A stretch of DNA of 22,248 nucleotides from NCBI GenBank assembly GCA_029834535.1, contig JAQMWT010000661.1, forward strand, positions 1 through 22,248, in the 5' to 3' direction. The translations under genes were made by a program, and so were the position numbers. Every line of letters starts with the position of its first letter. Within the stretch, counting starts at the first letter, position 1. This document shows, piece after piece, positions 9,761-13,140 of this stretch. The notes beneath the pieces were generated by a model. That model had not been told where the DNA came from. It saw nothing but the letters and a program-made list of their open reading frames with translations, and did no database searches. This stretch comes from Chrysophaeum taylorii (taxonomy: Eukaryota > Sar > Pelagophyceae > Pelagomonadales > Pelagomonadaceae).

Positions 9761-11911
9761 TTAGTGTTTTTTGACATCGAGGAGGTTTGGGCGGCTCAGC
9801 GAGTGCGCAATGGCGCTGCCCTTTTGTGCCTCGAGGATGGGGCACACGTGGACTTCGAACCACGCGTCGACTCGTTCGTTGAAGGCGACCTGCCACCCGT
9901 GATTCCCTTGAGTCGCCGCCGATGTTGTTGCGTCGAGGGCAGTCGTCCTCCATGCCGCAGGCTGCGCGGCGTCGAGCGCGCTTGCGAGGGCACAAAAATT
10001 GAGCCGTCGCGCGAGGTCGACCCACGGTTGGAACTCGTGGCTGTACGAGCCGCGGGACGCTTTGCGCGCGGCCGACTTGGCTATGATGGAGATGGCGGTA
10101 ATCTTGACGAAATTCTCGAACTCGTGGACGGACTTGTAGTAGGATTCGATCTTTGTTCGCAAGATCTCGCGGTCGGTTTCGTATTGGCACTGCGTTTTCT
10201 CGACGGAGAGAAACTCGATCGACGAGATGTAGAGCGCGAGCGTCGCCGGGTTCAAAAACGCTTCAACGCACATGTGCACTGTCCTCGGGTGGTGCGAGAC
10301 CAGAAACTCGGCCCACTCGTAGACGCACCACGTCCGGTTAAAGTAATTCCAGGACAGCAGGACGACCATGCCGTCGCATCGTCTCAGGAAGAGCTCGAGA
10401 TTGTCGACGCAGTCAATCATGAGCGGATGGTTTTGCGGAATACAACACTTGTCGATCCAGAAGGTGCAGTCCTTCTTCCAGCATGGATTCTTCGTCGTCG
10501 TCTTCGGTAAGCTTGCCGCCGCCGTGATATCCTGCGCCGCGATCGCTAGCTCGCTCGCCTTGATGTCGGAATACGCCGACGACATGAACATATCCCAGTC
10601 TTCCGGCGGGCTCCACGAGTGTGAGACAAACCGGGTTGCTCTCTTGGCGGGATGCGACATTTTGTAGTCCGTCGTATGCCCACGGTTCTTCGTCCAAAAT
10701 ACCGACGTTCGACCCATGGCGTCCGCGTCGAACCAATCGGCCGCGACGCGCTCTGCGGCGACGGCGCGCATCAGGAGGTCCGTCGGGTCGTCGGCCTCGC
10801 GTACCGCTGCAGCGAGTTTGTCGAGCGCCGACTTTGTTCGGGGCGTAATGGCTTCTACACAAACGAGCTCGGTCAACTTTGAAGAAGAAGAAGAAGAAGA
10901 AGAAGTTTTCGGCGTCGACGTCTCGATCATTCTAGTGCGGGAGCCTTCGTCCTGATCAGCTTGTGATATTCGTTGCTTCGCAGGCGCCTGCACCATGACA
11001 GCGTCCGAGGAGGAACAACACAGCCATCCAGACACGCGGCGACACCGCAATTTGTGGTGGCGCTGGTGCTGCTGCTTGGACGTCGAGGAGTCTTCGTCAA
11101 CGTCTGAATCTTCGTTTTCGTAAGAGCCTTCGTCGTTGTCTGCGTCTTCGTCCTCACAAGAGATTTCGTCTTTATCTGGGGACATATCGTTCTCAGCTTC
11201 GTTTGACAATCGCTGCCCCGTAGGTATTTGCGACGCGACGACGTTCGAAGAACAACACGACCACCCCGAAACGCGGCGGCGACGTGGCAGCTGGTGGTGA
11301 CGATGGCGGTGGTTATCAATCAGGGTCTGGAGGCCAGCGACCGTTCTTTTTTCGACTCGAATTGTCCAGGTCGCATGAAATCCGCCTTTTTTGGGGGTCT
11401 CCCAGCGTTCCATGCGGACCAACGATTGATCGTAGAGGGCGCGGCCGAGAGTCGGAAGTAGCCCCTCGACCAGCGGCGCGAGCAACACTCCGCGCGAACT
11501 TTGGTATGACAAGACAAAGTCGCGGTTGTTGGTGCCGGCGACCTCGAAGACCGGGAATGTCGACTCGCGGAAGGATCGCTCCAGGTTGTAGTGCAAGTGG
11601 TTGATGTTCTGGAGCAACGCGACGAGGTCGCCGCCCATTGCCCGGAGTATTCGGGCGTAGCCTTGTCTCAGGAGGTAACCACCAAAAAAAATGCCAAACA
11701 CGCGCAACGCGTCGCCAACCGACACCTCGAGGACGTTCGCTGTTGCCTGTACGACCGCGATGGTCGCTTCTTCATCCGGATATTGCTTGCTCCGGTCGAG
11801 GATCGTCGCGTCGTCTTCGATACCAACGTCCCTCAAAATTTTCTCCCACTTGTCCGCGCCGAACTTGGTCACAACGAGCTCCTTGAGAGCAACGTGGATC
11901 AGCCCGTGCAT
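9761..11911 (-). CDS. H-NOX sensor fused to TIR-like domain
   Basis: A 716-residue protein in one uninterrupted frame. Residues 1-190 are an H-NOX (heme NO/O2-binding, HNOB) domain: it starts MHGLIHVALKELVV, has the proximal-ligand helix INHLHYNL with H107 matching His105 of soluble guanylate cyclase beta1, P120, and the propionate-binding YxSxR motif as Y136-S138-R140. No Tyr occupies the distal stretch 141-152, which suggests an NO rather than O2 ligand. Residues 195-345 are a Cys/Arg patch, an acidic Ser/Asp/Glu region and poly-Ser, with a duplicated RRVSGWxCCSS element. Residues 425-600 are TIR-like: FVSHSW (428-433), WIDKCCIPQ (485-493), MVVLLSWNYFNRTWCVYEW (515-533), where E532 sits where NAD-cleaving TIRs keep their catalytic Glu. 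The rest to 716 is unassigned. There is no cyclase, kinase or membrane segment. It is probably a cytosolic gas-responsive signalling protein. The start is fixed by the H-NOX N-terminus, which normally begins at or next to the initiator Met. Confidence 0.85.
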   Translation of the reverse strand: MHGLIHVALKELVVTKFGADKWEKILRDVGIEDDATILDRSKQYPDEEATIAVVQATANVLEVSVGDALRVFGIFFGGYLLRQGYARILRAMGGDLVALLQNINHLHYNLERSFRESTFPVFEVAGTNNRDFVLSYQSSRGVLLAPLVEGLLPTLGRALYDQSLVRMERWETPKKGGFHATWTIRVEKRTVAGLQTLIDNHRHRHHQLPRRRRVSGWSCCSSNVVASQIPTGQRLSNEAENDMSPDKDEISCEDEDADNDEGSYENEDSDVDEDSSTSKQQHQRHHKLRCRRVSGWLCCSSSDAVMVQAPAKQRISQADQDEGSRTRMIETSTPKTSSSSSSSSKLTELVCVEAITPRTKSALDKLAAAVREADDPTDLLMRAVAAERVAADWFDADAMGRTSVFWTKNRGHTTDYKMSHPAKRATRFVSHSWSPPEDWDMFMSSAYSDIKASELAIAAQDITAAASLPKTTTKNPCWKKDCTFWIDKCCIPQNHPLMIDCVDNLELFLRRCDGMVVLLSWNYFNRTWCVYEWAEFLVSHHPRTVHMCVEAFLNPATLALYISSIEFLSVEKTQCQYETDREILRTKIESYYKSVHEFENFVKITAISIIAKSAARKASRGSYSHEFQPWVDLARRLNFCALASALDAAQPAAWRTTALDATTSAATQGNHGWQVAFNERVDAWFEVHVCPILEAQKGSAIAHSLSRPNLLDVKKH

Positions 11912-12800: not shown

Positions 12801-13114
12801 GAACTTACTGGGACCACGTGAACTTACAGGGGTTGGAGACTGGGACTAGGTGAACTGAGTGACCAGGTGAAACTGGGACCAGGTGAACATACTGGGGTTT
12901 TTAGAGTAAAGGGTTTTTAGAGTAAACTCAAAGGTTGGCGGCGCGTGCGGATCAAAGCAGCTTAGATTGGCGGAGGCGAGAGCGACGAGCTCAAGGGAGT
13001 TGGTGTGAGCTAGGTGAACTTACTGACCAGGTAACTAACTAAACTTATACGAAACTTACTGGGACCAGGTGAACTCTCTGGGGTTAGAGATTGGGACTAG
13101 GTGAACTTACTGGC
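12797..13114 (+). repeat. Degenerate AGGTGAAC tandem repeat
   Basis: Repeated variants of a unit close to AGGTGAACTTACTGGGACC are scattered over about 320 bases, interrupted by variants such as GGGGTTTTTAGAGTAAA and by about 80 bases of unrelated GC-rich sequence (about 12930-13010). The array begins directly at the end of the helicase relic. The unit contains a good splice-donor-like string (CAGGTGA). Its function is unknown; it could be a minisatellite within or beside the transposon. Confidence 0.75.
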
Positions 13115-13140
13115 CTGCACTTGTAATAACTCAATCATCG

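Follow-up and report, generated by a model that had tools for sequence, protein, structure and literature searches.

An H-NOX domain joined to a TIR-like domain in one algal gene: architecture, relatives and a candidate nitric oxide switch

The fusion gene and its sensor half

The window, the whole 22,248-nucleotide stretch of DNA analysed here (contig JAQMWT010000661.1 of Chrysophaeum taylorii, positions 1 to 22,248), carries at 9761..11911 on the minus strand an uninterrupted frame of 716 codons plus stop, which joins an H-NOX domain to a TIR-like domain and has relatives spanning both halves. A first-pass annotation had placed an unbroken 716-codon frame at exactly this interval and left its strand unstated; the frame is confirmed exactly, and the plus-strand reading of 9761-11911 contains 9 stops. 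H107, P120, Y136, S138 and R140, as well as the motifs FVSHSW (428-433), WIDKCCIPQ (485-493) and NRTWCVYEW (525-533), are likewise found in the translated frame where that annotation had put them. The predicted start, MHGLIH, is common to 11 of 18 aligned relatives and to 35 of 67 relatives in all. A protein search aligns relative P0003 with 98% of the query, 41% of the residues being identical (45% in the multiple alignment), which argues that the fusion is more than chance. Profile and structure searches back both folds, the TIR fold more distantly, so the proposal that one protein joins the two halves holds. The architecture is real and conserved and has, apparently, so far gone undescribed; a literature search joining H-NOX with the TIR domain came back empty, with most subscription papers outside its scope, in agreement with the earlier statement that no H-NOX-TIR protein had been described.

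The H-NOX (HNOB) domain occupies residues 1-187 (11351..11911, minus strand). Pfam HNOB (PF07700) matches residues 2-163 with an expectation value (E) of 1e-29 and 104 bits against a curated cut-off of 25.5, and when the A3 profile was run against PDB sequences, H-NOX chains and nothing else came back; the profile and structure checks suggested for this half return an H-NOX fold. Specifically, His107 (11591..11593, minus strand), the predicted proximal heme ligand, is H in 55/55 proteins and aligns with the NLH histidine of Alr2278, which we take to be the heme ligand of that protein. Y136-x-S138-x-R140 (11492..11506, minus strand), presumably the heme propionate motif of the H-NOX literature, is kept as Y in 54, S in 49 and R in 55 of 55 proteins.

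We considered and rejected a soluble guanylate cyclase identity: neither an HNOBA nor a cyclase domain was found in the query (Pfam, E up to 1) or at the genome's HNOB locus. Two family records in Symbiodiniaceae, P0050 and P0062, carry the names 'Soluble guanylate cyclase gcy-36' or 'gcy-36', and a Pfam scan of P0050 at E up to 0.1 found no cyclase or HNOBA domain. The database name is therefore misleading for the H-NOX-TIR family.

Residues 188-344 (10880..11350, minus strand) form a linker of low model confidence, with a predicted local distance difference test score (pLDDT) <50 over residues 203-344, which are disordered in the model. The gap between the two profile matches measures 65-353 residues in 53 proteins and 187 in the query. 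The linker holds an internal duplication (DNA repeat D5), with one copy at residues 203-244 (..RVSGWSCCSS..; 11180..11305, minus strand) and the other at residues 283-324 (..RVSGWLCCSSS..; 10940..11065, minus strand). In a two-sequence BLASTP comparison the copies are 51% identical (E 7e-11), making this a duplication, about 42 residues long, that has diverged. Separately, in 29 of 54 rows the linker carries clustered cysteines after a short H-x-A-L stretch (the query is not one of the 29; motif chosen post hoc), and the cluster is possibly a lipid-anchor or redox site.

The TIR-like half

The conserved C-terminal module spans residues 376-699 (9815..10786, minus strand) and comprises a pre-TIR segment, a TIR core at residues 421-621 (10049..10651, minus strand) and a helical tail at residues 622-700 (9812..10048, minus strand), the last with model helices in 623-700 and lying within the conserved family alignment. 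The module is modelled with a pLDDT of 89.8 and a predicted template modelling score (pTM) of 0.90, and the query scores 433 bits with the C-terminal family profile built from A1, of which it is itself one row. WIDKCCIPQ (10433..10459, minus strand) corresponds to a HET/TIR-like strand B motif, in which D is kept in 64/64 proteins and K, C490 and Q493 in 65/65 each. Glu532 of W528-C-V-Y-E532 (10316..10318, minus strand) falls at the position of the catalytic glutamate of TIR enzymes that cleave nicotinamide adenine dinucleotide (NAD+), the TIR NADases, and is E in 63/63 proteins; W528 is kept in 65/65 and C529 in 63/63. This register is set through relative P0068, whose WCCYEL lines up with WCLNEL of plant SNC1 and with WCWDEL of Cat1, though the E-values are weak.

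The claim of a TIR-like fold is supported: profile and structure searches back the fold, if distantly, but the query does not reach the Pfam TIR and TIR_2 curated cut-offs. In particular, the TIR_2 match at residues 500-568 has E 0.0016 and scores 19.4 of the 28 bits required, while the TIR match at residues 503-537 has E 0.035 and 14.3 of 21.3 bits; we therefore class the query as TIR-like rather than as a Pfam TIR member. P0068 does pass the Pfam TIR cut-off. Among 20 members scanned at E up to 0.1, TIR_2 was matched in 11, HET (PF06985) in 7 and TIR in 6. The best HET match has E 0.0011, the query itself has no listed HET match, and the weak HET match of P0063, at residues 729-777, spans its WVDKACIPQ stretch. 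The NCBIfam FxsC TIR-like match (E 0.00058) is a further hint only, its 19.9 bits lying well below the cut-off of 130. A PDB search with P0068 gave first the unrelated ParS antitoxin, over another stretch (E 0.061), and then three TIR chains (E 0.29-0.63). PADLOC matched neither the query nor P0003, and nothing in a viral structure library fell below E 0.001; its best row (E 0.72), a Tetraselmis virus 1 protein with TIR/WD40, was left unused. The TIR-like half may nevertheless function as a TIR enzyme, and may well do so.

Relatives and genomic setting

Relatives P0002-P0069 were gathered in three protein searches, and P0002, the window's own shortened copy, was dropped. Two of the searches scored no candidates beyond the 7994 and 7997 with the most words in common, which makes all counts of relatives lower bounds. 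A half was called present at 100 bits or more with the H-NOX profile or 50 bits or more with the C-terminal profile. By this measure, both halves occur in at least 52 of 67 relatives (53 proteins with the query), and H-NOX comes first in all 53. A look for co-occurring architectures in algae, as proposed beforehand, thus finds the same fusion in many algal sequences. For fourteen of the proteins with both halves, the source name is of the transcript type, with an MMETSP, Trinity or CAMPEP label (P0005, P0007, P0014, P0018, P0019, P0020, P0023, P0032, P0034, P0038, P0039, P0042, P0047 and P0053). That the genome holds the joined frame on just this one contig speaks for reading it as a gene-model or assembly artefact hiding two genes, yet such a reading is highly improbable, since the frame is uninterrupted and needs no splicing, and the same two halves recur in relatives of varied sources, including those with transcript-type names.

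Among named organisms, both halves were seen in Prorocentrum cordatum, Effrenium voratum, Polarella glacialis, Durusdinium trenchii, Cladocopium goreaui and Symbiodinium natans, all of which are Dinophyceae, and Symbiodinium pilosum has a partial family member. The haptophyte Haptolina ericina contributes a C-terminal piece that begins inside the module; no named haptophyte with both halves was seen among the relatives, at least 67 in number. P0066 and P0067 pass for H-NOX only, and P0066 ends just within the C-terminal module. In a FastTree analysis of 60 C-terminal modules, which left out 9 of 69 sequences (P0002, P0006, P0055, P0059, P0064 and P0066-P0069), the query is a lone branch inside a group of 28 with support 0.84. 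Furthermore, the distances of the two halves correlate across 46 proteins (r 0.83; 0 of 2000 permutations equally high), and the halves therefore seem, on these sequence distances, to have been inherited together. We also considered a prokaryotic or viral origin of the fusion and did not retain it: no relative was confirmed among the pattern matches of the A1-based scans (2 in GTDB contigs and 26 in IMG/VR), which use two short motifs that remote kin could escape.

Thirteen relatives possess the C-terminal module but lack a full H-NOX domain: two ion-channel proteins, two TIR-like proteins with hydrophobic stretches and nine apparent fragments. Among the fragments, P0065 falls with the ion-channel proteins in the tree. 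In the ion-channel proteins, P0022 (1095 amino acids) and P0063 (1066 amino acids), an ion-channel domain (PF00520) and EF hands precede the TIR-like module; because of this arrangement, algae seem to use the module with a calcium-linked input besides H-NOX. In P0068 and P0069, long hydrophobic stretches, seen by eye, lie between the SHSW/SHDW-like and DKxCIxQ motifs and resemble a membrane hairpin inserted in the TIR-like domain.

The genome assembly (70.8 Mb, 697 contigs) was searched exon-wise, so absences in it are soft. HNOB has one place, the fusion gene, and so does TIR_2, there below threshold; no second copy of the C-terminal module was found beyond a noise-level match (E 1.4). HNOBA was not found at E up to 1, a search without a positive control since 0 of 14 control genomes passed the cut-off, and NO synthase gave no match, with two bacterial controls giving matches (NO, nitric oxide). 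As far as the assembly shows, the only H-NOX gene is therefore wired to a TIR domain and not to cyclic GMP. Three cyclase-domain places (L005, L006 and L007, on contigs C309, C229 and C154) all lie away from the HNOB contig, and cyclic-nucleotide signalling may exist in this alga, though without a recognisable H-NOX cyclase.

The neighbours in the window are ordinary eukaryotic genes, encoding an SBF-like transporter, a WW protein and a CRAL-TRIO protein, and its three other long frames have no Pfam match. Upstream of the fusion gene, at 12807-13117, a 28-base repeat (ACTGGGACCAGGTGAACTTAC-like) occurs five times, with copies 64-100% identical to the reference copy. Elsewhere in the genome, light-harvesting genes give 84 matches, which are clustered (contigs C88, C539, C390 and others) and in many cases have identical scores, suggesting recent amplification. 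These matches mark the genome as that of an alga. Of two light-harvesting proteins, L009 best matches chains with FCP names, whereas for L008 the best matches carry LHCI names and FCP names rank lower, which makes a chlorophyll a/c-type alga likely.

A candidate switch, its rivals and its nearest known systems

The single frame, the H-NOX fold, the TIR-like fold, one fusion order throughout many algal sequences, the invariant heme ligand and TIR glutamate, and the lack of an H-NOX-cyclase match in this genome are results of the analysis; the mechanistic steps beyond domain identity we infer. In the H-NOX family, NO weakens the His-iron bond and the domain changes shape. In the fusion, the H-NOX domain would hold heme via His107 and YxSxR and bind NO, which would loosen the His-iron bond and reshape the domain. 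Through the flexible linker, the TIR domain would then be freed or clustered, and TIR assembly would form an active site around Glu532 in which NAD+ is cleaved or cyclised. The outcome would be a nucleotide signal or NAD+ depletion, leading to a stress, defence or death response. That the gene product is such a one-protein switch, with an NO-binding H-NOX controlling an NAD+-cleaving TIR domain, we consider an even call. The recurrence of the fusion in many algal sequences suggests that gas sensing is wired directly to a switch for death or defence.

The strongest rival, which we think unlikely but worth real weight, holds that the C-terminal TIR/HET-like domain is non-enzymatic and that NO alters its self-assembly or its binding to other TIR/HET proteins, as in adaptor TIRs and as proposed for fungal HET domains. 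Many adaptor TIRs lack the catalytic glutamate, and the invariance of Glu532, together with that of W528 and C529, counts against this reading, whereas the mixture of TIR_2, HET and TIR matches among the 20 scanned members favours it. It is the strongest because, in the excerpts used of the papers cited here and below by PMC number, HET domains reportedly suffice for cell death when overexpressed (PMC12881547) and are proposed kin of TIR domains, with HET homologs reported in Haptophyceae and Stramenopiles (PMC4986451).

Less probable again, yet short of negligible, is that the sensor half answers not to NO but to a different ligand or condition (O2, CO, heme redox state or heme supply) and switches the TIR domain accordingly. 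The ligand choice of an H-NOX is unreadable from its fold alone, and the genome gave no NO synthase match. However, position 147, which we take to match the O2-stabilising distal tyrosine of Thermoanaerobacter H-NOX, holds L, V, I, F or A in 55/55 proteins and never Y, which, if the match is right, would fit an NO-type pocket. In addition, NO can also be obtained from nitrate reductase or from bacteria (PMC6461841, PMC10356946).

For the NO-controlled NAD+-cleaving switch, the wider setting is that NO has been reported to trigger or accompany the death of a bloom-forming alga (PMC10356946, PMC6461841). Term searches of the main texts found no 'guanylate' in either paper, no 'NO receptor' or 'NO sens' in PMC10356946 and no 'receptor' in PMC6461841. 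A point against a plain death signal is that NO seems to be needed for optimal virus production and is possibly cyto-protective (PMC6461841). Literature searches found nothing on a TIR domain NADase in microalgae, and the papers found for H-NOX in dinoflagellates were, by their titles and the starts of their abstracts, not on algal H-NOX proteins. Tentatively, and with the balance of likelihood somewhat against it, we propose that chlorophyll-c algae (dinoflagellates, probably haptophytes and kin) hold an ancient family of TIR enzymes, hydrolases or cyclases of NAD+ that are gated by NO, in which NO from infected neighbours or bacteria would bind heme and directly start NAD+ destruction or a cyclic-ADP-ribose-type signal. 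Such a family, if real, would supply the receptor that is missing from the path leading from NO to the programmed death of phytoplankton, and would give TIR enzymes a new class of input. With H-NOX and TIR in one conserved chain, the protein is a directly testable candidate that connects two large signalling fields.

Among known systems, a TIR atlas preprint of 2026 has uncharacterised clades, 3 and 9-13, that likewise consist of divergent eukaryotic TIR domains (PMC13142454, excerpts), and a term search of its main text found no 'heme', 'HNOB' or 'H-NOX'. The preprint also reports that a glutamate mutant of TirC stayed active when PEG was present. The fungal HET domain is approached through the weak profile matches in 7 of 20 members, but the algal domain retains the TIR WCxxE block, and HET-TIR similarity is reported to fall away past helix C (PMC4986451). 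With H-NOX sensors such as Nostoc Alr2278 and soluble guanylate cyclase beta, the fusion shares the whole H-NOX fold, the proximal His and YxSxR, and, with the latter, the N-terminal placement of H-NOX; its output half, in contrast, is TIR-like, with no HNOBA or cyclase domain found in the protein. Bacterial H-NOX domains occur with kinases, cyclic-di-GMP enzymes or chemoreceptors. In other systems, TIR domains break down NAD+ in immunity and cell death. With TIR NADases (SARM1, plant TIR resistance proteins such as RUN1 and RPP1, and the SPARTA and CRISPR Cat1 TIRs), the fusion shares the fold and the W-C-x-x-E glutamate position, although the algal domain is under the Pfam cut-off and has an additional pre-TIR segment and helical tail. 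These TIR NADases take their input from leucine-rich, armadillo or Argonaute parts, whereas the input of the algal fusion is a gas sensor.
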